NCBI GenBank assembly: GCA_021816725.1
Contig: JAKAXD010000003.1
Span: forward strand, 1 to 64,000
DNA length: 64,000 nucleotides
Direction: 5' to 3'
Source: Thermoplasmata archaeon
Lineage (GTDB): Archaea > Thermoplasmatota > Thermoplasmata > Thermoplasmatales > GCA-001856825
The notes under the pieces are model-generated. The model was not told where the DNA came from, ran no database searches, and saw only the letters and a program-made list of their open reading frames with translations. Shown here one piece after another: positions 43,008-56,512 of the stretch; the first letter of the stretch is position 1, and each line of letters starts with the position of its first letter. The position numbers and the translations under genes were made by a program.

Positions 43008-43035
43008 GGGCTAGATTGACGGATTATACAGGTTT

Positions 43036-45950
<2,915 letters not shown>

Positions 45951-46214: not shown

Positions 46215-46862
46215 TCAGACCTCCTTTCCCTCTAGTATCTTCCCCATGCCCTGCTTGACTATAATGCTGGCATACTTCATAGGAAGAGTCACGATATCTT
46301 CTTTTCTCAGATTGACTGGTTTCCCCATTATTGAAATGCCCTTGATATCCTCGAGGATATATATTACCACATTTTTTTCTTCATCCTCTTCCTGTGCGTC
46401 CTTTTCTTCCGCTTCTTCCTTTGTCTCTTCCGATTCCTTACTGGGGATTATGACTTCCCCCTGTTCCAGCTGAGCAGAGAATTCACTTACTGATTTCGCT
46501 ATGTTCTCGAAAAATATTTGTTCTTCGGGGGTCAGCCTGCCCTCCAGTTCCTCCCTCTCGTTGTTTGCCTTTGCCTTGAGTATCTTTGATATTCTGAGCT
46601 CTATAATCTTCTTTAGGAACTTTTCCGATGATTCCAATTCGTTTGTGAGTTTTCCTATCTGCCTTGAGTTCTTCTTGACTGTCTCTGTCTCTATTCTCTC
46701 CTTCAATCTCTCCAGATAATCCCTTGCCTCCTTGTAAAATTGCACCGATACTGGTTCAAGCGAATAGTCGTTCTTTACCTCTAACCGAAGTAACGCATTG
46801 AGGTAACCCTCATTGACCTCTCCCTTCATCCGTTGTCCAATAACTTTATGGATAAATATCAT
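46215..46862 (-). CDS. gins51: GINS complex subunit Gins51 (Gins15)
   Basis: 215 residues. The protein is part of the archaeal CMG-like helicase (Cdc45/GDAN-MCM-GINS). The A domain is helical (VSVQFYKEARDYLERLKERI, then LESSEKFLKKIIELRISKIL and LTPEEQIFFENIAKSV), followed by an acidic linker and the C-terminal B domain (VVIYILEDIKGISIMGKPVN, LRKEDIVTLPMKYASIIVKQG), the order A-B typical of Gins51. ATG 46862 overlaps the stop of the VirD4-like gene (ATGA); ATG 46829 is an alternative. It is the last gene of the DNA-transfer-like operon. Confidence 0.85.
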   Translation of the reverse strand: MIFIHKVIGQRMKGEVNEGYLNALLRLEVKNDYSLEPVSVQFYKEARDYLERLKERIETETVKKNSRQIGKLTNELESSEKFLKKIIELRISKILKAKANNEREELEGRLTPEEQIFFENIAKSVSEFSAQLEQGEVIIPSKESEETKEEAEEKDAQEEDEEKNVVIYILEDIKGISIMGKPVNLRKEDIVTLPMKYASIIVKQGMGKILEGKEV

Positions 46863-48892
46863 TTCTTTTCCAATATCTTAGAAATCAAGTCGCTCGTGAT
46901 CTTGAAATCCTTTCTCATGGTTGAATCTGCAAGCTTCCTTCCACGTACCTGAAAACATTCGTGCCTTCCCCTAAATATTCCGGAATCAATAGTGATCCTA
47001 CCTACGAAATGAATATCATTGTCCCTTGCAATTTTCTCCTTCAGCGTGGATATGACTTCCGACCTGTCGTACTCCTTCAGGATTTGACAGAACTCTTCAA
47101 GTATGAAGTACGTTGAATCGTTATTCTTCATCTCCATGACCATTTCTTCTATCTCAGAGGACAGCCCTTTCCTCTTCCTTTCTGTTATGAAATCGAAATC
47201 CCTTGTCCTGAATTCCCTGCTTTCATTAGAGAACTGCATGGGCTCCACCATCCCTTTCTCCTGTCCTGACGAGGACAGAAGCAGAAATTCGAACGAATCC
47301 TTTGGTGGGTCAAGATCAAGGCCGGTAAATTCCTTTATCTTTATCCTGTCTGGCTCCGTAAGCCTCATGAAAATGTAATTGGAAGCGTTTGAAAACAAGA
47401 GGGTTCCGATATTATCCGATATAGATCTCAACGAAGTCGTGAGGAAGAATATCCTTAGTCCGAATTTTCGACCTGAACTTAGCATATCCCCTATCAGGGT
47501 GCTCTGGTAGTCCTGCCCTTCCTCGAGGAATAGGAAGTAATCACCTTTCCTTATCGTCGATATGGTTATCCACATATACAAAGTAAGGATATTTGACAGC
47601 AGCCTTGAATCTTCATAGCCTATGCTGCTCCTCTCAAGATCAAATATTATTAGATCCGCCTGAGTGATTGCTCTCATTAAGGCACCTTCGTCATCAGGAT
47701 CACAGATGAGTGTACGAACGACTGGGTCGTTCACAAGTCTGCCTATTGCCCTTTCTGTGCTTGCCTTCTCATCGCTAGATATTTTGCCAAGTTCATCGAG
47801 GAATTTCTTAAGCTGCCCATTTTGGTCTTTGCTCGTCAGTTCTTCCCTGACCCCTGGATCCTTCAAAATATTGTAGAAATCCACCAGTGTCATCCCCTTG
47901 ACTCCGGCGAGCAACGAGATTCCCCTTGTTATCAGGTCCTCCATCCTTGGTCCTACAAGCGGGTCTGCGTACTGTACCTCTCTTGAGGACCTAAGTATTG
48001 AAACAAAGTCTTCTGCCACCCTGTAAGCCATCCCTTTTTCATTCCAGTTGCCTATCAGATTGAATGAGTTCTGAGAGTCGGGAGAGATGATATATTTCTT
48101 GTAATCATACTCCTCCATTTTCTTTGCTGTATCCCCGTGTGGATCTATCAGTATTACCTTTCCAGACTTGTTGCTGAGTATGTGATTCATCATACTGACT
48201 ATCATCGAGCTTTTCCCAGCTCCAGATGAGCCTACGATCAATGTGTGAGGATTCTTTCTTGAGTCTATGAAAACATCTCCCCTGTTTATTGTTGCACCAA
48301 CCTTTACATCTCCTTTGTCGTTGGAATGCGTTTTTGTAGGAATGAATTGGTGGATCTCCCACCATGCAATTACGGGGTTCCTGAGCCCGAACCTTCCCTT
48401 CCTTGCGCTTACCTTGGGAGAAGAGAAAATGTGGGAGAGATAATCACCCAAGTTTACGTTATCGAATTCAAGGACGACCTTCCATCCCTTGACTTCATTG
48501 ATCTTTTTATCCATGACCCTTTCCCTTAATGCCTCCTTCCTGACCGACTGAAAGTAGTGAGATTCTATTGACATCATCAGAAAACCTGACTTCTCCTCGT
48601 TCAATAGTTCTAGGATCTTATCAGCATAGTTTTCCGTTCCAAACTTCAGAAAATGAGAATCGCCCTTCACGAATATCCGTCTACCCTTTCCTTCGAAACT
48701 CCTCGATTCTGAAAACTTCCACCCTACCTTCCTGAGGAATTCATCGTTCCCCATGCACGAATAAATCTTTGCGTGTTCTCCTTCTCTCTTCAGAAACAGG
48801 AACTCTATGGTCCTGCCGCTCCTTATCCAGGAGAGTAGAAAGGGATCATTCTCCCTTAAAGGGGTGATCGTTTCAACTTTCAGGAATTCCAT
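46859..48892 (-). CDS. VirD4/TraG-like (HerA superfamily) ATPase
   Basis: 677 residues. After a 200-residue N-terminal domain comes VFIDSRKNPHTLIVGSSGAG with Walker A GSSGAGKS at 221-228, then VILIDPHGDTAKKM (FtsK/HerA-type strand), an all-helical insert of about 120 residues as in coupling proteins, DLIIFDLE, Walker B YFLFLEEGQD (452-461) and the sensor segment FFLTTSLRSISDN. IDPHGD and the position of the all-alpha region match TraG/TraD-type and archaeal DUF87-like pumps. No N-terminal membrane helices are evident, so it may need the membrane partners in the operon. The gene overlaps the VirB4-like gene by 20 bases and gins51 by 4. Confidence 0.85.
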   Translation of the reverse strand: MEFLKVETITPLRENDPFLLSWIRSGRTIEFLFLKREGEHAKIYSCMGNDEFLRKVGWKFSESRSFEGKGRRIFVKGDSHFLKFGTENYADKILELLNEEKSGFLMMSIESHYFQSVRKEALRERVMDKKINEVKGWKVVLEFDNVNLGDYLSHIFSSPKVSARKGRFGLRNPVIAWWEIHQFIPTKTHSNDKGDVKVGATINRGDVFIDSRKNPHTLIVGSSGAGKSSMIVSMMNHILSNKSGKVILIDPHGDTAKKMEEYDYKKYIISPDSQNSFNLIGNWNEKGMAYRVAEDFVSILRSSREVQYADPLVGPRMEDLITRGISLLAGVKGMTLVDFYNILKDPGVREELTSKDQNGQLKKFLDELGKISSDEKASTERAIGRLVNDPVVRTLICDPDDEGALMRAITQADLIIFDLERSSIGYEDSRLLSNILTLYMWITISTIRKGDYFLFLEEGQDYQSTLIGDMLSSGRKFGLRIFFLTTSLRSISDNIGTLLFSNASNYIFMRLTEPDRIKIKEFTGLDLDPPKDSFEFLLLSSSGQEKGMVEPMQFSNESREFRTRDFDFITERKRKGLSSEIEEMVMEMKNNDSTYFILEEFCQILKEYDRSEVISTLKEKIARDNDIHFVGRITIDSGIFRGRHECFQVRGRKLADSTMRKDFKITSDLISKILEKK

Positions 48893-50456
48893 CTATGTTC
48901 TCCATCTCCTTCCTGCTGGACTGGAAACGTAGGATAGTGGTGAAACCTGGGCAGTAGAAAAGTGCTGTAGAATACTTACCATTGAACCCTGCTCCCGATT
49001 TCAGGAAATTTGCAAGACTTTCGTCGAGATTATAGAATTTCACCATATCGTCTGATACTACCTGGTGCCTGAACAGGATGTGAATAGAACAGTTCTCCAT
49101 TATCGTTACAGAGGGCCCGTATTTCAGGAAGTCGTTAGCCGATTGAGAGATGAATATGAGGGAAACCCTGCTGTGTCTTGCGTGTCTTATGTAACGCTCC
49201 ACTGAAGTGATCACCCTTTCCTGGAGTAGATAATGCGCTTCGTCTATCACTAAATTCACGGGGCTTTCTTCCTCGCTTCTCATGAAAAGGTCAAGGGATA
49301 GAAGCATGTAGAATGGCAAAAGCTTCTTAGGAACATTCTTCAAGTCTATCCTGACATCACCTGTTAAGTTTGGGTTCTTCCCAGAACAGAACTTCTTGAG
49401 TGATCCCTCAAATATCGGGGAAATCTTGTTGTATGTTTCTGCTCCCCTAGATTTCACGTAGTTCTTCAAGAAGTCCAGATTTTCGTTCTGCTCGTACATT
49501 TTAGTCAGCCCCGTATCAAGTATCCCGCTGTCCTCGTTGTTCAGGTCAAAGAGAGTAAGCAGTAGTGCCAGCGTTCTATCCACATTCTCCTTGATTGCGA
49601 GAAATTGGACTCTGGCGAACATGTTCATTTCCTGATTGATGAGGTCAATCGTCTGCATCCCGACCGACTTAGCAACGTTCCCATATTCACCGAGAGGGTC
49701 TATGATCTTCAGGCTGACATTTCTAGTGACCTTCTCTCTCAACATTGTCGCCTTCACAAAAAAAGACTTTCCGAATCCAGTCATTCCAAGTACGAGCTGG
49801 TGTGATGAAGGGAATCCGGACCTATCCATGAAAACAGGTGCGCCAGTTATCTCGCAGGTTCCATAGAAAGTCCCATTTTCCTGAAACAAGTATCCATGAT
49901 TGATAGGTATCATGTTTGAAACAGAATTTAGGTCCAGGTAAACGCCATCAAGCTGACCCCCGATGATCTTGTTCCTGACCCTTACGTCAGAAAATCTCTT
50001 GTTCTCAGCCTTGACACCTATTTTCTTAAGGTCCTCAAGCAATTCCTTCTTCGTCCTGAGTACCTTGTCCGCTTCCCCTGTTACAAAATAGGCACTGGAA
50101 AATTTCAAAAGCTTGGATTTACCGGATGCAACCCCTTCCTTCAGGCTGACTATGTTCTGCACCGTCAGCTTGTTTGATTCTACGTTTCTGTCATTCATTC
50201 TTTCGTGGTCGATTAACCTCAGGCTCCTCCTTCCAAACTCCCTTGTTATGATATTCCATGCCGAATTCTCCTCTACAGGATGTATCCTGACAATTTCCCC
50301 TACGTTATCCCGCTCTGCCGAGATCTTGAGCTTGAATTTTTGATCAATTTCGAAGGGGAAGTCCCTAGTGAAGAGGAATGAGTGGGCGGATCCGTGATTA
50401 ATGTAGTACCATTCCTTTTGGATGACAGAGGTGAGTTTCTTGTCATATGATGTCAT
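48873..50456 (-). CDS. VirB4/CedB-like ATPase of a DNA-transfer or secretion machine
   Basis: 527 residues. Walker A GMTGFGKS at 224-231 is preceded by HQLVLGM, followed by LKIIDPLGEYGNVAK (the D-x-x-G-E-Y/F motif of VirB4/TraE/HerA proteins), Walker B NLVIDEAHYLL at 401-411, the arginine-rich RYIRHARHSRVSLIFISQS segment and IFRHQ-like LFRHQ. The first 200 residues form the partner-binding domain. VirB4 ATPases energise pilus assembly and substrate transfer; in Sulfolobus CedB, a relative, is needed for DNA import. It overlaps the preceding membrane-protein gene by 14 bases. Confidence 0.85.
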   Translation of the reverse strand: MTSYDKKLTSVIQKEWYYINHGSAHSFLFTRDFPFEIDQKFKLKISAERDNVGEIVRIHPVEENSAWNIITREFGRRSLRLIDHERMNDRNVESNKLTVQNIVSLKEGVASGKSKLLKFSSAYFVTGEADKVLRTKKELLEDLKKIGVKAENKRFSDVRVRNKIIGGQLDGVYLDLNSVSNMIPINHGYLFQENGTFYGTCEITGAPVFMDRSGFPSSHQLVLGMTGFGKSFFVKATMLREKVTRNVSLKIIDPLGEYGNVAKSVGMQTIDLINQEMNMFARVQFLAIKENVDRTLALLLTLFDLNNEDSGILDTGLTKMYEQNENLDFLKNYVKSRGAETYNKISPIFEGSLKKFCSGKNPNLTGDVRIDLKNVPKKLLPFYMLLSLDLFMRSEEESPVNLVIDEAHYLLQERVITSVERYIRHARHSRVSLIFISQSANDFLKYGPSVTIMENCSIHILFRHQVVSDDMVKFYNLDESLANFLKSGAGFNGKYSTALFYCPGFTTILRFQSSRKEMENIDGIPES

Positions 50457-51027
50457 TTAGAGCACTTGCCTCATTTTCCGCCAACTTCGAAAAGGGTATA
50501 CCGTAATTTCTAAGCGTTCTTTCAAAGTCGTCAGACCTCTCTTTAAGGATCGTTATGAAATAAGCATCGGCGAAACAGTTTAGACCTGAGAAAAGAGAAT
50601 CGTATTCCTCATTCCCCCTAATGAATCTTTGAAGTGGAACTCTATAAGGATGCTTTATGATTGTCATATCTTCTGAAAACGTATCTATGATTGAAGTCCA
50701 CGCATCTATTATGACCCTGTCCTGCTGTTCAGATAGGCCGTAGTTTGTTCCGAAGATTTCATATGCGGCCTTCCTTTCTGTGATCAGAGGAAAGAGAGTC
50801 GAAACTGTTATTCCCCTTAATTTTTTCAATATGTATTCGTCCACATAATCGTGCTGAACCCTTATGGAGAACATAGGAACCAGTATGAGCGAAAGGAAGC
50901 CGTATGAACCAAGATAGAATATCGATATGAGTACTGCAAGGGTGACGAGGGTTATCCTGTAGAGGGCGGAGCCTTCAAGCGGGCCTATTCTGATTGAAGA
51001 AGTCTGGAATTTTACCAGCCTAACCAT
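50443..51027 (-). CDS. Membrane protein resembling VirB3/PrgI joined to the N-terminal part of VirB4
   Basis: 194 residues. A hydrophobic hairpin (ITLVTLAVLISIFYLGSYGF, LSLILVPMFSI) lies at about 25-60, followed by a soluble domain of about 130 residues with NYGLSEQQDRVIIDAWTSII, a pattern recalling the small N-terminal domain of VirB4 proteins where helices alternate with strands. By position (between VirB6-like and VirB4-like genes) and topology it would be the VirB3 equivalent. Assignment is by context and weak pattern only. Confidence 0.6.
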   Translation of the reverse strand: MVRLVKFQTSSIRIGPLEGSALYRITLVTLAVLISIFYLGSYGFLSLILVPMFSIRVQHDYVDEYILKKLRGITVSTLFPLITERKAAYEIFGTNYGLSEQQDRVIIDAWTSIIDTFSEDMTIIKHPYRVPLQRFIRGNEEYDSLFSGLNCFADAYFITILKERSDDFERTLRNYGIPFSKLAENEASALNDII

Positions 51028-52062
51028 TTACTCTTTCACCTTGAAAAAGAGGGAGGAACTTGTGCCATTCCCTGAGTTAAGTGGACTGAACTGTCTTATA
51101 GAACCTGTTTCAGGCGATACGTTTGCAGCCCCAGTTTCACCGGGAGCTGGGATGGATTTAACTATCATCTCTGCTCCCTTTACATTCTTAGTTATGTATC
51201 CCATTGAAGAGTTTACTCCCCTTCCCACTGATCTTCCGAGGAAGTTTGTTGCTGACCTAGAGGACTGGCTCATGGCGAGCATCGTAGGGGCTGCATCGGC
51301 TAATGCAAGGAATCCTAGGACAAGTACGCTATTGTTCCTGACGTAAGTTGAAAGTATCAGGGGAATGGACATTATTATTGGCGCAAAAAGTGAGTCCAGG
51401 AATAGAAACCAAACCCTCTCTCCTATTTCCTTTGTCCTAGGTATCAGGATGAGCAAAGTGAAGATCGGAGCGAGTAGTGGGAAAGTGTAAAGGATAGCTG
51501 CTCTCATGGAAAGAAAAAGTAAAAGGTAAAGCATGAGGAAGACAAAGATGACAAGTATTAGGAGGCTTACAATGGAGCCAGATCCACCGCCAATTTGCAG
51601 GCCTATAAGTAAATTTGAGCCAGAAGAGAAGTTGTGATAAGGAACCCCATAATTCCAAAGCTGCGTGTAGAGCAATGAACCCACATAGAGGAGATCCTGG
51701 AAGAGGAAGAAGGATATGTTAGACAGGACAAGAAGAAGCAATATCTTGATCCATATGTTCTTAAAATCCATCCCAAGTTGGATGCTGCTATTAAGCAGAA
51801 TGAGCAAACCCAGTGCTATGAGTATAATGGTGAGTAATGGGTCATAGATGCTGAACATGATGAAGTAGTAGAGCGACCTCACTCCCTCACCGACACTACC
51901 GCTGACTATGTTTGGAAATGCATACTGTGGAGCGAGAAGATATTTAGATATGAAGTTGCTGTAAAGAGATACCAGGACTGGTTTGCCTACGTACACAATG
52001 GCTGATACAATGTAGCTTATCGCCTTCAGGATTGCATCTACTATTATTGAAACGAAGTTCAT
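51028..52062 (-). CDS. VirB6/CedA-like polytopic membrane protein
   Basis: 344 residues with six to seven long hydrophobic helices (AISYIVSAIVYVGKPVLVSL, PLLTIILIALGLLILL, IWIKILLLLVLSNISFFLF, SLLILVIFVFLMLYLLLFLS, LLAPIFTLLILIP, APIIMSIPLILSTYV) and a soluble Ser/Gly/Pro-rich tail of about 90 residues. VirB6/TrbL proteins and archaeal CedA share this plan and form the inner-membrane channel. The gene directly abuts the next (stop and start adjacent), so they are co-translated. Confidence 0.7.
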   Translation of the reverse strand: MNFVSIIVDAILKAISYIVSAIVYVGKPVLVSLYSNFISKYLLAPQYAFPNIVSGSVGEGVRSLYYFIMFSIYDPLLTIILIALGLLILLNSSIQLGMDFKNIWIKILLLLVLSNISFFLFQDLLYVGSLLYTQLWNYGVPYHNFSSGSNLLIGLQIGGGSGSIVSLLILVIFVFLMLYLLLFLSMRAAILYTFPLLAPIFTLLILIPRTKEIGERVWFLFLDSLFAPIIMSIPLILSTYVRNNSVLVLGFLALADAAPTMLAMSQSSRSATNFLGRSVGRGVNSSMGYITKNVKGAEMIVKSIPAPGETGAANVSPETGSIRQFSPLNSGNGTSSSLFFKVKE

Positions 52063-52076
52063 ACGATCATTTCATT

Positions 52077-52421
52077 CTATCCTGCGACGATATAGTGTAC
52101 CACTGCGTAGAGAACTCCGCTCACTGCCATCACGAATATGACCGTACCTATCAGCGCGTCTTTTGTTCTCTCCTTCGCGTCCGCTTTCCTGTCCATGTCC
52201 TTCGAAAAATAGCCTATCGCTATCGGTACCCAGAGTATGGCTATAATCAGCCCAGATACTCCTGCAATGATACCAAAAGCCCTCTGGACCATACCATTAA
52301 TAGTTGAAGCGTTGTCCGATGCAGATGGTACAGGATATTGGTTTGTAACCGTTCCGTGGACAAATGCTACCGGAACCACGGAGATAATAACTAGGGCCAA
52401 TGCCAGTGCTAATAATCTCAT
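52077..52421 (-). CDS. VirB2/TrbC/CedA1-like pilin candidate
   Basis: 114 residues: signal peptide (LLALALALVIISVVPVAFVHG, cleavage near residue 23), a short polar segment, helix 1 (GIIAGVSGLIIAILWVPIAI), a strongly charged loop (SKDMDRKADAKERTKDAL) and helix 2 (GTVIFVMAVSGVLYAVVHYI). The signal peptide plus two helices joined by a basic loop is the plan of VirB2 and of the archaeal CedA1/TedC pilins. It is first in the operon and has the strongest ribosome-binding site, as expected for the most abundant subunit. Confidence 0.75.
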   Translation of the reverse strand: MRLLALALALVIISVVPVAFVHGTVTNQYPVPSASDNASTINGMVQRAFGIIAGVSGLIIAILWVPIAIGYFSKDMDRKADAKERTKDALIGTVIFVMAVSGVLYAVVHYIVAG

Positions 52422-52425
52422 TTAA

Positions 52426-52462
52426 CCCCTCCCAATATTGCAATCCTTACTTTTATAAAACT
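52426..52462 (-). promoter_or_regulatory. Promoter and Shine-Dalgarno of the DNA-transfer-like operon
   Basis: On the minus strand TTTTATAAAA (52451-52460) is a good TATA box, and GGGAGGGG (52426-52433) is a very strong Shine-Dalgarno ending 5 bases before ATG 52421. With the usual 26-base spacing, transcription would begin at about 52430, inside the purine box. Either the true start lies a few bases further up or the box acts in the internal genes' transcript. The unusual proximity is worth mapping. Confidence 0.5.
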
Positions 52463-52529
52463 TTTTTTGAACATAAACCAAATTAATCGTTGCAAAGCAT
52501 AAAATAGAATACAGCTGTAGCCATCTTGT

Positions 52530-53639
52530 TTGAGAACCACGGTAGACTTTGAGAATGAAATTAAATCGAGAATTAAACTGCTCCAACGGTGGGTATCGGA
52601 CGAAAACATAGGTGGGATTTACCTTACTCCAGGAGACAACTTCTACTACTCATCCGGCTTCAACGCTGATTCAATGGAACGTCTCCTTGCAGTAATTATA
52701 ACTGCAGAGAGGTCAGTAATGGTAAGCCCAATGATACTTGAGGATCAGATAAGAGGTACGCCATGGCCGGGAGAAATTGTTGCTTGGAAGGATGGAGAGA
52801 ACCCCTACAAATGTGTCTCAGAAGTGTTCACAAAAGGTCATATTGAAACACTTGCTGTGGAAAACAAAATTGGCTATTCCGATGTCCTTAGATTTAAAAA
52901 GATGGGAGTCAAGAAATTCAAATTTTCTGATAGCCTGCTCAATTCTTTGAGGATCATAAAGACCAAAAGTGAGATTGAATTCATTTCTATGGCAATAAAG
53001 TCATCTGAGTTTTCCTACGAGAAAGCACTGGAAGAAGTCCATAGAGGAATGACAGAAATGGAGCTTGCAGGTATCCTCGAATATCAATTCAAACTTCACT
53101 CCCTTCAATCTGTGGCCTTCGAAAGTATAGTCGCATTTGGCGAGAATGCTGCAATACCTCACCACGTTCCATCAGGCAGGAAACTGAGATCGGGAGACAT
53201 TGTGCTGATTGACTTTGGAGGAAAATATATGGGGTATTCCTCGGACACCACCAGAACCTGTGCATACGACAAAATCCAACCAGGAATGAAGACAATATAC
53301 GAAGTTGTTAAAGATGCACAGGAAAGCGCTCTGCATGGAATCAAAAGAGATTCCACGTATGCATCCATCGACAAAACTGCCCGTGACATTATAACTAAAA
53401 GTGGATATGGCAAACACTTCACTCACAGGGTAGGTCACGGACTAGGAATTGCAGTCCATGAAGAGCCCTACTTAAATCCTCTCAACAAACAGGTTATCCA
53501 GAAGAACGCTGTCTTCACCATCGAGCCAGGTATTTACCTCAAGGGAAGGGGAGGGGTAAGAATAGAGGATACCGTCTCATTTAACGGCCAAAGGGCAATC
53601 CCGTTCAACAAACTATCCAGGGAACTTGAAGTAATCTAG
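52530..53639 (+). CDS. pepQ: Xaa-Pro dipeptidase / aminopeptidase P (M24 family)
   Basis: 369 residues from TTG 52530, the only start that includes the creatinase-like N-terminal domain (residues 1-130: GGIYLTPGDNFYYSSGFNAD). The pita-bread domain has VLIDFGGKYMGYSSDTTRT (two Asp metal ligands), HRVGHGLGIAVHEEPYL (His), VFTIEPGIYL (Glu) and GVRIEDTV (Glu). It splits dipeptides or N-terminal residues before proline, suited to a peptide-using organism. CATAAAATAG about 22-32 bases upstream could be its TATA box. Confidence 0.9.
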   Translation: MRTTVDFENEIKSRIKLLQRWVSDENIGGIYLTPGDNFYYSSGFNADSMERLLAVIITAERSVMVSPMILEDQIRGTPWPGEIVAWKDGENPYKCVSEVFTKGHIETLAVENKIGYSDVLRFKKMGVKKFKFSDSLLNSLRIIKTKSEIEFISMAIKSSEFSYEKALEEVHRGMTEMELAGILEYQFKLHSLQSVAFESIVAFGENAAIPHHVPSGRKLRSGDIVLIDFGGKYMGYSSDTTRTCAYDKIQPGMKTIYEVVKDAQESALHGIKRDSTYASIDKTARDIITKSGYGKHFTHRVGHGLGIAVHEEPYLNPLNKQVIQKNAVFTIEPGIYLKGRGGVRIEDTVSFNGQRAIPFNKLSRELEVI

Positions 53640-53763
53640 ACCCTGGCATAACTTATCATCTGTTCTCCTTTCATTAAACTTAACTTTTCTACCAACAAAA
53701 GAAGCCTTCAGTGGTCCACAACACAATCAACAAAGATAATAATTTGTGTATATTTCTATAAGC

Positions 53764-53952
53764 ATGGAAGAGCAGTGCGATGTTGCAGGTTGTTCTAACC
53801 CGAAAGCAAGGACTATAGGCAGGAAATCCGTTGAGAAGATATTCACTCTGAATTCCAAAGGAACAAAGGCCCATCTGTGCAAGGAACACTACAAACAATA
53901 CAAGAAGGCGACAAAGAAGGACAGGGAAATTGACAGGCTGAACTGGGTTTGA
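53764..53952 (+). CDS. 62-residue zinc-finger-like protein
   Basis: ATG 53764 (MEEQCDVAGCSNPKART); a longer frame from 53746 adds six unlikely residues. Cys5, Cys10 and the later LCKEHYKQYKK give a C-x4-C...C-x2-H pattern that may bind zinc. The rest is basic, so nucleic-acid binding is plausible. It ends nine bases before the start of the regulator gene and is the first gene of the topoisomerase VI transcript. Confidence 0.65.
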   Translation: MEEQCDVAGCSNPKARTIGRKSVEKIFTLNSKGTKAHLCKEHYKQYKKATKKDREIDRLNWV

Positions 53953-53960
53953 AGCCTGTT

Positions 53961-54746
53961 ATGAGGAGCGATCATATGCAGGACTTATATGAGTTCAGGG
54001 AAAAGGGAAATCTGACATCTGCACTGATCATAATCGAGCTGCTGAGGGGCAAGAGGAAGCTGAGGGAGATATCAACAGACCTCAAAATAACGCCACAGGG
54101 AGCATCGGTATATCTGAAGAATCTTCAAAAGAACAATTTCGTTGACTCCGGCAACACACCAACACCAAAGGGGGTAGCATTCCTCCAGCAGATACTCTCC
54201 ACGATTTCCCAATTCGTAGAGAATGCTTACGAAGACACTGGAATTATCTCATCCTGCGAAGCCATTGCCTGGGATGACCTGAAAAGAGGTGATAGGGTCA
54301 GCCTCTCCATGAAGAAGGGGATCCTCTACGCAAGCAAGAAAAGCAGGTCAGGTTCAAGCGGTATCGCAGATTTTAATGCCAGAAAGGGGGAGCCGGTTAG
54401 GGTTTCAAACATTGAGGGAATAATCAATCATAAGGTAGGCGAGTTCTACGTAATGTCTGTAGACTTCGATGACCTAAGTGCTAAAGGGCTAAGGAAGCTG
54501 AAGAGTGTTATAGACGAGAAGAAGGTGGAATATGTGGGAGCCTACGGGATCCTCGCTTATGAAATGTGCAACCGTGCTGGTATAAAGACAAGCATATATG
54601 CACCGGTAGAAGGATGCATCGAAGCGGGAGCGAAGGGATTGACAAGCCTGCTGGTATATTCCCCGGAGATGGCCAGGTTCTTCTTCCAGAAACTCTCTGC
54701 AAACATACATAAGTACAGAATAAATCCCAAATTCGTAGAGATATGA
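53961..54746 (+). CDS. Winged-helix regulator-like protein upstream of topoisomerase VI
   Basis: About 260 residues. ATG 53961 is used; ATG 53976, with GAGGAG seven bases before it, is equally possible. Residues about 10-75 form a winged helix (LRGKRKLREISTDLKITPQG, VYLKNLQKNNFVDSG); the C-terminal part is a Rossmann-like domain (FYVMSVDFDDLSAKGLRKLK, KVEYVGAYGILAYEMC, GAKGLTSLLVYSPE). It may sense a small molecule. ATGA overlap with top6B shows that it is in the same operon and might control it. Confidence 0.7.
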   Translation: MRSDHMQDLYEFREKGNLTSALIIIELLRGKRKLREISTDLKITPQGASVYLKNLQKNNFVDSGNTPTPKGVAFLQQILSTISQFVENAYEDTGIISSCEAIAWDDLKRGDRVSLSMKKGILYASKKSRSGSSGIADFNARKGEPVRVSNIEGIINHKVGEFYVMSVDFDDLSAKGLRKLKSVIDEKKVEYVGAYGILAYEMCNRAGIKTSIYAPVEGCIEAGAKGLTSLLVYSPEMARFFFQKLSANIHKYRINPKFVEI

Positions 54747-56512
54747 CTGAGTTGGATACAGATAGAAAGGAAGTCAGCATTTCTGAGTTCTTCGACAAAA
54801 ACAAGCAGATGCTTGGTTTTGATTCTCCGCAGAAGGCACTCTTCATGACTGTAAAGGAGGCTGTTGACAATTCGCTGGATGCTTGTGCGGACAGTGGAAT
54901 TCTTCCTGAAATAACAGTCAAGATTGAGGAGCTTGGAAAGGAGAAGTACAGGGTTGAGGTCACGGACAACGGTCCCGGGATAGAGAGGTCTGAGGTTGCG
55001 AATTCATTCGGGAAAATGCTGTACGGTTCAAGATTCTTCAAGGAGAGGCAGACAAGGGGACAGCAGGGACTCGGCATATCAGCCGCCATCCTCTATGCCC
55101 AGAAGACAACCGGCTTTCCCACTGAGATAGTCACCAAAGTTGAAAGGGAAATGACTGCATTTCATTTCGTGCTAGACATAGACATCAAGAAGAATTCTCC
55201 CCATAAGATCTCAGAGATTCCGGAGATCTGGGATACCAAGAGTGGATTGAAAATCACCATCGTTCTCAAAGGGAAATATGTAAGCGGGAAGCAGTCTGTG
55301 GAGGAATATGTCAGGGAGAGTGCTATTGCAAACCCTCACACTACATTTCACCTCATCCTGCCGGACAAGACAGTTGACATAGAGAGAAGCGTTGATGAAG
55401 CACCCCAGGTTCCTATAGCTGTCAAGCCGCACCCTCACGGTGTAGAACTAGGGGAACTCGTATCCATTTTCAAGGAGTATGAAAACCAGACGATAGAGGA
55501 GGTCCTTGAGGATAAATTTTCACGCGTGACCAAGCAAACTGCAAAGTCAATAGTTGAGAAAAGCAAGCTGAAGGACAAGAAAATTTCTAAGCTTACGAGG
55601 GACGATTTTGAAGAATTAATGAAGGCTATAAAGGAAACTGACTTCATGGAACCCCGTAAAGATTGCCTTTCGCCTATAGGTGCTGAGCCACTCTTCAAGA
55701 GTGCTATAAACTCATTCAAGGAGTACCATCCGGCATACTTTTCACAGGCAGTTGTAAGGGGGCCTTTCGTCTTTTCAGGACATCCCTTCCTTGTCGAAGC
55801 AATCGCCATCTATGGCGGGGACCTTCCAAAGGAGGACCCCATAAGGGTGCTGAGATTTGCCAACAGGGTGCCACTTCTGTATCAGTCTGGCAGCTGTGCG
55901 ATAACAAGGTCAGTATCTTCCCTTGCTTGGAACCAGTACGGTTTTTCCCAACCAGTCAAAGACCAGCTTCCAATAGGCCCACTGGTTATTGCAGTTCACG
56001 TAGCGAGCACCAAGATCCCTTTCACCTCCGAGGCGAAGGAAGCAATAGCAACTGTACCTGAGATAATGGACTCCCTTGATTTGCTTCTAAGGGGGGTGGC
56101 AAGGCAAATAAAGACAATGAGGAAGAAGGAAGCCCACAAAAGCCAAGTCGCCGAAAAATTTGCGTTGATAGAGCAGATACTGCCGCAAATAGCTGCAAAA
56201 AGCTCGAAGATACTCAACCTCGAACCTCCAGACATCACTCCAATCATTTCGAAGGTCATGGGCGTGGTTGCATTCAGGGAAATTGACGGTGAGCTATTTG
56301 CGGAGAATTACACGGAGAAGTCCCACAGCTTTAAGGTGGTGTTGAAGGGGGAGGGGACTTTCACTGATAGCGTTAAAAATCTCAAGCCGTTCCAGAAGGT
56401 GAAACTCAACTTTTCCAGGGAGATAGTGAGCTCTTCGGAGATCTATGTAGATCTCCCGGAACCCATTCTTCTTGGGGCATACACATTGCCGAAGGTGTTT
56501 AAAGATGAATGA
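54743..56512 (+). CDS. top6B: DNA topoisomerase VI subunit B
   Basis: 589 residues. GHKL ATPase: AVDNSLDACADSGILPEITV (N box), VTDNGPGIERSEVANSFGKM (G1) and GQQGLGISAAILYAQ (G2/ATP lid), an H2TH-like region (VTKQTAKSIVEKSKLKDKK) and a transducer domain with the switch lysine region (SLAWNQYGFSQPVKDQLPIG). Together with subunit A it passes one duplex through another and relaxes positive supercoils. The start overlaps the upstream stop in ATGA, the end overlaps top6A. Confidence 0.96.
   Translation: MTELDTDRKEVSISEFFDKNKQMLGFDSPQKALFMTVKEAVDNSLDACADSGILPEITVKIEELGKEKYRVEVTDNGPGIERSEVANSFGKMLYGSRFFKERQTRGQQGLGISAAILYAQKTTGFPTEIVTKVEREMTAFHFVLDIDIKKNSPHKISEIPEIWDTKSGLKITIVLKGKYVSGKQSVEEYVRESAIANPHTTFHLILPDKTVDIERSVDEAPQVPIAVKPHPHGVELGELVSIFKEYENQTIEEVLEDKFSRVTKQTAKSIVEKSKLKDKKISKLTRDDFEELMKAIKETDFMEPRKDCLSPIGAEPLFKSAINSFKEYHPAYFSQAVVRGPFVFSGHPFLVEAIAIYGGDLPKEDPIRVLRFANRVPLLYQSGSCAITRSVSSLAWNQYGFSQPVKDQLPIGPLVIAVHVASTKIPFTSEAKEAIATVPEIMDSLDLLLRGVARQIKTMRKKEAHKSQVAEKFALIEQILPQIAAKSSKILNLEPPDITPIISKVMGVVAFREIDGELFAENYTEKSHSFKVVLKGEGTFTDSVKNLKPFQKVKLNFSREIVSSSEIYVDLPEPILLGAYTLPKVFKDE

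Follow-up and report, generated by a model that had tools for sequence, protein, structure and literature searches.

The locus described here raises the question of whether Thermoplasmata possess a conjugation machine that has been turned into a chromosomal trait of their own. The domesticated archaeal conjugation machines recognized so far are Ced and Ted, both from Thermoproteota. The stretch of DNA analysed, hereafter the window, comprises positions 1 to 64,000 of contig JAKAXD010000003.1 from a Thermoplasmata archaeon (assembly GCA_021816725.1, a 1.31-Mb bin with 79% completeness; genome G000, contig C23 of our sample). Five consecutive genes in it had been read from the letters alone as a putative DNA-transfer machine related to Ced, Ted and type IV secretion, and perhaps as a new system. 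The analysis supports a chromosomal, relaxase-free machine of the type IV secretion system (T4SS) type, with pilin, VirB6-, VirB3-, VirB4- and VirD4-like parts. We consider it probable, with some reserve, that the operon is a minimal, domesticated T4SS of the monoderm (MPF-FATA-like) sort, which most likely serves, as Ced and Ted do, to exchange chromosomal DNA between related cells.

A conserved operon under purifying selection

The five genes are full-length open reading frames on the minus strand and follow one another closely: from the pilin gene onward, the spacings are +14, 0, -14 and -20 nt, with a further -4 nt to a GINS gene, which overlaps the stop of the VirD4-like gene. Counting the latter junction, three overlap and two abut. 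The machine proper occupies positions 46859-52421; the remainder of the range first assigned to it (46215-52421), namely 46215-46862, belongs to the GINS gene, a sixth gene.

The order pilin, VirB6, VirB3 region, VirB4, VirD4 is kept, together with its GINS and topoisomerase VI neighbours, in 11 of the 15 genomes of the family (the window and ten further loci), at protein identities that range from 98% down to 29%. GINS adjoins the operon in 10 of the 10 family loci examined, and a block of ORF68, TF265 and topoisomerase VI precedes it divergently in the conserved loci; a peptidase-like gene occurs in some of these loci but not in others. In genome G004, remnants of the VirD4-like gene lie at a contig end, where the contig breaks inside the gene. 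In G002, G005 and G013, neither the operon nor the TF265 flank was found, and true loss of the operon could not be separated from genome incompleteness.

Relative to the same-genus genome of I-plasma (G006), an archaeon of acid mine drainage, whose VirB4 is 95% identical to that of the window, the second to fifth genes exhibit ratios of nonsynonymous to synonymous substitution (dN/dS) of approximately 0.04-0.09, similar to those of neighbouring genes; for the pilin gene, the comparison was made with genome G008 (dN/dS 0.022/0.647). Selection on the operon is therefore strongly purifying, and because the gene order is also kept in 11 genomes at 29-98% identity, the arrangement is not due to chance. 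In I-plasma, a run of G in the pilin gene (L032:6302-6647) is longer by one nucleotide, which breaks the frame relative to the window and is possibly a sequencing error.

Beyond the window's own family (f1), iterative profiles were applied to other Thermoplasmata families (f3, f4, f6, f14 and f15). We take f6 to hold the genomes of Thermoplasma acidophilum, Thermoplasma volcanium and Cuniculiplasma divulgatum, and f4 to hold one Aciduliprofundum boonei genome along with DHVE2 records; these genomes are called putative below. In f3, f4 and f6 loci, the profiles found pilin, channel and VirB4, in some cases along with a separate VirB3 region, and the presence of the machine is order-wide. The channel was found in 87 of 250 genomes of a class-wide sample: in all 21 f6 genomes of the set of relatives, in only part of f4, and in two further families of the class, f15 and f14. 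It was not found in many other families of that sample. Machine genes are also carried by hydrothermal DHVE2 archaea. A record filed as a candidate division WOR-3 bacterium (L102, JALVYB010000079.1) contains a DHVE2-like VirB6-VirB3-VirB4 set that falls with DHVE2 in the tree, and is probably misbinned or the result of a recent transfer.

The membrane components

By its predicted features, the 114-aa protein is a VirB2-type pilin. Its match to the Pfam family T4SS_pilin (PF18895; E=1.6e-4) lies under the curated cut-off, and the same family is matched by 23 of 27 pilin relatives (best 6.8e-7), two of which also match TrbC/VirB2. A pilin paralogue in the putative A. boonei genome passes the cut-off (34.9 versus 26.6 bits). 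Hydropathy delineates a signal-peptide-like N-terminus followed by a two-helix hairpin; the signal-peptide-like start is present in the alignment rows of f1 and f3 and absent from most of those of f6. A search of the pilin profile against PDB sequences returned nothing relevant, and neither TedC nor CedA1 was matched.

The surroundings of the pilin genes vary among the relatives. In the putative A. boonei genome, five tandem genes encode pilin-like hairpins (L049:12826-17685), and in four of these, large additional domains (320-405 aa) are present. In some f4 and f15 loci, giant proteins of 1762-2293 aa are encoded directly upstream of pilin or channel genes (L221:4225-11106, L214:10063-15351, L215:11015-16573 and L219:10486-15963); immunoglobulin (Ig)-like and PKD repeats are present in the three that were scanned, and these proteins are possible adhesins of the machine.

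The 344-aa protein has no direct match in Pfam or NCBIfam, and indirect but consistent evidence points to a channel of the VirB6/TrbL type. With its AlphaFold model (pLDDT 69), Foldseek retrieved TrwI/VirB6 of plasmid R388 at ranks 1, 2, 4 and 5 (7o3v, 8rtd, 8rt9). The channel profile detects a protein of Saccharibacteria (E=1.7e-15; hhalign 95%), for which a pilin-like match and a weak match to TrbL/VirB6 (PF04610) were recorded. Against 151 Thermoproteota genomes, seven of them with CedB, the same profile found nothing credible, and neither CedA nor TedA; CedA and TedA are themselves without BLASTP similarity to each other (PMC9905601).

The 194-aa protein had been described as a VirB3-like hairpin protein. 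The hairpin is indeed there, but the rest of the chain is a soluble domain of ~130 aa with kinship to part of the VirB4 N-terminus; hhalign pairs this domain with proteins encoded next to VirB4 in Pontibacillus (95%) and Saccharibacteria (97%). In the AlphaFold model, the hairpin is joined to a ferredoxin-like domain, and a structure search with this model returned unrelated proteins, some of them with ferredoxin-like folds such as PII and CutA, and neither VirB3 nor VirB4. The protein has no direct Pfam or NCBIfam match, and PrgI (PF12666) is matched weakly by 5 of 27 of its relatives. Its gene sits between virB6 and virB4, and in several Thermoplasmata the VirB3 region is fused to VirB4, as revealed by matches of up to 3e-18 to the B3 profile within VirB4 proteins of 634-698 aa. 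We infer that the 194-aa protein combines a VirB3/PrgI hairpin with a fragment detached from the VirB4 N-terminus. The operon would thereby offer a VirB3-like part of the kind thought to be missing in archaea, in which homologues of VirB3 and VirB8 have been described as absent (PMC11868833).

The two ATPases

The 527-aa protein possesses the Walker A motif GMTGFGKS and matches the NCBIfam model of CD1110-family VirB4 (E=1.8e-22), under the equivalog cut-off. In a mixture-model tree of 53 ATPase domains, with no Ted proteins included, it groups with VirB4 from Firmicutes, Patescibacteria and haloarchaea (100/96), apart from CedB, and a clade of VirB4 with CedB was rejected by the approximately unbiased (AU) test (p=6e-7). 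Two Lachnospiraceae-type proteins that had been candidates for VirD4 references were dropped, as they have no Walker A motif.

The 677-aa protein scores above the Pfam thresholds for TrwB_AAD_bind (PF10412; 22.3 versus 20.5 bits), AAA_10 and DUF87, the last of which, the HerA central domain, is matched by both ATPases of the operon. A stronger match to PF10412 is found in the VirD4-like protein of the putative T. acidophilum genome (5.9e-12). In the tree, the 677-aa protein groups with other VirD4-like proteins of Thermoplasmata (99/95 and 97/87), and a 98/95 split parts it from VirB4 and CedB and leaves it together with HerA, CedD and a bacterial VirD4. Its best NCBIfam match is CedB (4.7e-10), over residues 198-279 and with 38.7 bits against a cut-off of 700; the match to CedD reaches 29.1 bits against 600, and the CedB cut-off is not reached in the window's genome. 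The identification as CedB was dropped after the tree and the AU tests, which rejected a grouping of the VirD4-like protein with CedB (p=0.01) and also a grouping of it with the genome's own HerA alone (p=0.004).

The original prediction had presented this second, coupling-type ATPase as an addition to the known archaeal systems. The VirD4-like assignment stands, but its novelty was overstated: Ced also uses two ATPases, CedB and CedD (PMC11868833), and many relatives in the order carry VirD4-like genes at other loci, so that the idea of a VirD4 unique to the operon locus was likewise abandoned. In f4, no VirD4-like protein was detected at the threshold used. Among the genes at other loci is a second VirD4-like ATPase of 542-651 aa, present in several families of the order (L072:4510-6697 and its equivalents in L073, L077, L078, L079 and L090), which lies away from the pilin operon and is preceded by a gene of ~185-218 aa. 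In Micrarchaeota (L105, L109, L129, L136 and similar loci), VirB4-like ATPases beside which no pilin or channel was detected fell near CedB in the first tree. A defence role was rejected, PADLOC having returned nothing more specific than generic HerA and mad8 ATPase matches for the locus, those to the HerA models being weak.

Proposed function and alternative explanations

The relaxase family PF03432, the only one searched for, is absent from the window's genome and from all genomes of its family. Above the cut-off, it was matched in only two f4 genomes (G027:C60 and G038:C40; L223 and L224), with four weaker f4 matches; these are probably mobile elements. Because purifying selection is strong and no relaxase match occurs in the family, the operon is best regarded as a domesticated chromosomal T4SS and not as a mobile element.

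In such a machine, the 114-aa pilin would enter the membrane through Sec, undergo cleavage and be assembled into a thin filament of the VirB2 type, with the VirB6-like protein as the membrane base beneath it. The VirB3/PrgI-like hairpin would anchor VirB4, which would power assembly, transport or both, and the VirD4-like ATPase would feed DNA. Without a relaxase, single-stranded chromosomal DNA might be made by general repair enzymes, as has been proposed for Ced and Ted (PMC9905601); a HerA-like ATPase gene is present in the genome. The presence of a coupling-type ATPase suggests that the machine can act in the donor too, and not only in the recipient. Relaxase-free transfer of archaeal chromosomal DNA by a pilin/VirB6/VirB4 set has precedent (PMC9905601, PMC11868833), and published images show pili that join plasma cells of acid mine drainage (PMC3750248, PMC4110969), although these pili have not been attributed to the genes discussed here.

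Several points speak against DNA exchange as the function, or against the parts assigned to it. The operon contains no DNA-processing gene except GINS, itself probably a housekeeping neighbour. By hydropathy, the 677-aa protein has no transmembrane segment and so no membrane anchor, and within the VirD4/HerA/CedD side of the tree, where branches are long, the order is only moderately resolved. The Foldseek matches of the channel to VirB6 are weak (E 0.3-0.8, prob 0.38-0.77). T4SSs that lack a relaxase are also known to transport proteins (PMC3158045). Finally, the sequence does not reveal what the machine carries or in which direction, and DNA transfer is what we infer.

The main rival, which we hold to be unlikely and yet deserving of serious attention, is a T4SS for cell-cell contact or for the exchange of proteins or nutrients with other organisms, such as the Micrarchaeota/ARMAN that live in association with Thermoplasmatales, with no role in DNA exchange. 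Patescibacteria keep a very similar, mostly relaxase-free set of VirB2 arrays, VirB6, PrgI, VirB4 and coupling protein, believed to serve their epibiotic life (PMC12102498), and Saccharibacteria are among the bacterial relatives of both the channel and the VirB3-region protein. Pili and tubes of Thermoplasmatales reach ARMAN cells (PMC4110969), and the giant Ig/PKD surface proteins lie directly upstream of pilins in some relatives. However, the operon includes no effector or toxin gene, its VirD4-like protein is of the DNA-translocase superfamily, the closest archaeal functional precedents, Ced and Ted, move DNA, and the machine is present in hydrothermal DHVE2 archaea as well. Far less probable, and strongly disfavoured, is a self-transferring integrated conjugative element (ICE), intact or already decaying. 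Every part is of the conjugation type, an ICE has been reported in A. boonei (PMC3158045), and at the end of an I-plasma contig (G006:C3; L058:1-6126) another VirB4, which is cut, adjoins a protein of 1679 aa that has a D4-type domain, in what is probably a separate mobile element. Yet the operon of the window's family holds a fixed place between GINS and topoisomerase VI in 11 genomes, no integrase is encoded among the genes adjoining it, and the strong purifying selection and the lack of a PF03432 match in the family point the same way.

A strict Ced/Ted system, inherited from an archaeal ancestor shared with Sulfolobales and Thermoproteales, is also improbable, if slightly less so than an ICE. 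The kinds of parts are the same (pilin, channel of 6-7 helices, VirB4-like ATPase and second ATPase), as is the chromosomal, relaxase-free setting, and CedB is the best NCBIfam match of the second ATPase; but that match is short and far under its cut-off, both ATPases were separated from CedB by AU tests on the tree without Ted proteins, and the channel profile found no CedA or TedA in the 151 Thermoproteota genomes. There remains a very slight probability that the ATPases are HerA-type DNA-repair helicases that happen to lie beside unrelated small membrane proteins, a notion that draws on their DUF87 matches and on the weak PADLOC HerA matches. It is at odds with the position of the 527-aa protein inside the VirB4 clade, with the rejected pairing of the VirD4-like protein and HerA, with the absence of NurA from the operon, and with the pilin, VirB6 and VirB3-region matches. 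Predicted structures unlike a pilin for the 114-residue protein and ATPases grouping with HerA-NurA were the outcomes that the original prediction had named as contrary to it; as far as sequence comparison goes, neither was obtained.

DNA exchange by a domesticated T4SS thus remains the reading that we favour. In a bolder form, which we offer tentatively and which is possible rather than probable, Thermoplasmata would have kept a nearly complete monoderm conjugation machine (VirB2-VirB6-VirB3-VirB4, with VirD4 in the operon in the window's family), lost its relaxase, and come to exchange chromosomal DNA as both donor and recipient. Ced and Ted would then be joined by a third domesticated archaeal system for DNA exchange, one that arose separately and that gives rise to recombination between species in acidic biofilms.

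Genomic setting of the operon

The coordinates of the operon, its putative control region and the adjoining GINS gene are collected in Table 1. The GINS gene matches Pfam Sld5 (E=2.6e-4) and NCBIfam Gins23 (4e-14), and its position suggests co-transcription with the operon; it is probably a housekeeping neighbour rather than a machine part. Beyond it lies an archaeal 23S rRNA gene (43023-45945). The genes of the other flank are divergent. Besides two small ones, they comprise a peptidase-like gene and those for topoisomerase VI B and A, named from a reading of their translations and not by a family search. When 11 family loci are aligned, the region between the pilin gene and the divergent peptidase-like gene displays a TATA-like stretch rich in A/T, and GGGAGG(G/A)G is conserved right before the pilin start.

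In genome G008 (L038), a 2.9-kb tract is 92% identical to window positions 52225-55113, while both flanks on the same contig are ~70% identical; one end of the tract falls inside the pilin gene and the other inside topoisomerase VI B. This mosaic suggests recombination between species, although bin chimerism might also account for it, and it is no evidence that the machine was responsible.

Table 1. Positions of the operon genes and adjoining features in the window.
Feature	Position	Strand	Basis
VirB2-type pilin (predicted), 114 aa	52077..52421	-	signal-peptide-like N-terminus, two-helix hairpin, short charged loop, C-terminal Gly; PF18895
VirB6/TrbL-like polytopic membrane protein, 344 aa, ~6-7 hydrophobic segments	51028..52062	-	AlphaFold/Foldseek, profile matches
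VirB3/PrgI-like N-terminal hairpin with VirB4 N-terminal-domain segment, 194 aa	50443..51027	-	hhalign, position, fusions
VirB4 ATPase, 527 aa	48873..50456	-	NCBIfam, Walker A, tree, AU test
VirD4/coupling-protein-like ATPase without transmembrane segment, 677 aa	46859..48892	-	Pfam, tree, AU tests
GINS replication-factor subunit	46215..46862	-	Pfam Sld5, NCBIfam Gins23, both under cut-off
Putative promoter and ribosome-binding site of the operon (intergenic)	52422..52529	-	alignment of 11 family loci

Comparison with known systems

Calling the system new, as had been suggested, calls for some qualification. In Cuniculiplasma, 'type IV secretion components' CSP5_1185-1189 and a VirD4, CSP5_0791, were listed in one sentence in 2016, without assignment of a pilin, VirB6, VirB3 or DNA exchange (PMC5155288). 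This is probably an orthologous pilin-VirB6-VirB4 cluster, which we find at L065 in the putative Cuniculiplasma genome; it differs from the window in that the VirD4-like gene lies elsewhere (L074) and VirB3 and VirB4 form one chain. A VirB4 component has also been noted in E-plasma (PMC10354927), and VirB4 homologues have been reported in archaeal chromosomes (PMC3158045). In the literature searched, which did not extend to preprints and most subscription papers, no description of a DNA-exchange system in Thermoplasmata was found, and a 2025 T4SS review searched for Thermoplasma does not mention it.

Like the window's operon, the Ced system of Sulfolobales (CedA, CedA1, CedA2, CedB, CedD and CedE) is chromosomal and relaxase-free, with a pilin, a channel and two ATPases of the HerA/VirB4 superfamily. 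However, its ATPases belong to other clades (CedB having been tested), and CedB and CedD are encoded at separate loci, whereas the window genes all lie in one operon. The Ted system of Thermoproteales (TedA, TedB and TedC) likewise has a signal-peptide-cleaved pilin followed by a channel gene and a VirB4-type ATPase (PMC9905601); it is set apart by description, not by sequence, in that neither a VirD4-like ATPase nor a VirB3-like protein has been described for it. Because VirB4 groups with monoderm VirB4s, a grouping with CedB being rejected, and because the channel finds no CedA or TedA in the 151 Thermoproteota genomes, the kinship with Ced and Ted that had been predicted appears to be one of type, not of descent. 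Here such a machine belongs stably to the chromosomes of a major euryarchaeal lineage, cultured species included (the putative T. acidophilum, T. volcanium, Cuniculiplasma and A. boonei genomes), and its VirB4 points to a separate origin of the monoderm-conjugation type. If the machine moves DNA, conjugation has been domesticated more than once, and archaeal recombination would become testable in cultured acidophiles.

Monoderm conjugation systems (MPF-FATA; PrgH-PrgI-PrgJ type) share the order small pilin-like protein, VirB6-like protein, PrgI, VirB4 and encode VirD4 in the same cluster, and their VirB4s group with those of Thermoplasmata in the tree. On the relaxase-bearing conjugative plasmid pAO44 of Lacticaseibacillus paracasei, a small Maff2-like protein, a polytopic protein, PrgI and VirB4 follow one another, with VirD4 just upstream, and this shared order supports descent from conjugation. 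In contrast to the plasmid, the window's operon is chromosomal, has a fixed neighbourhood, and holds no further gene, be it for a relaxase, VirB8, peptidoglycan hydrolase, replication or integration. The T4SS of Patescibacteria is likewise chromosomal and mostly relaxase-free, with VirB2, VirB6, PrgI, VirB4 and a coupling protein (PMC12102498); its tandem pilin arrays have a counterpart in the putative A. boonei genome, and its channel and VirB3-region protein are profile-detectable homologues of the window proteins. The differences are that the host here is archaeal, that the hairpin and a VirB4 N-terminal segment share one chain, and that VirB3-VirB4 fusions occur in Thermoplasmata, none having been found in Patescibacteria (PMC12102498). 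Judged by its sequences, the machine is closest to the T4SSs of monoderm bacteria and Patescibacteria.

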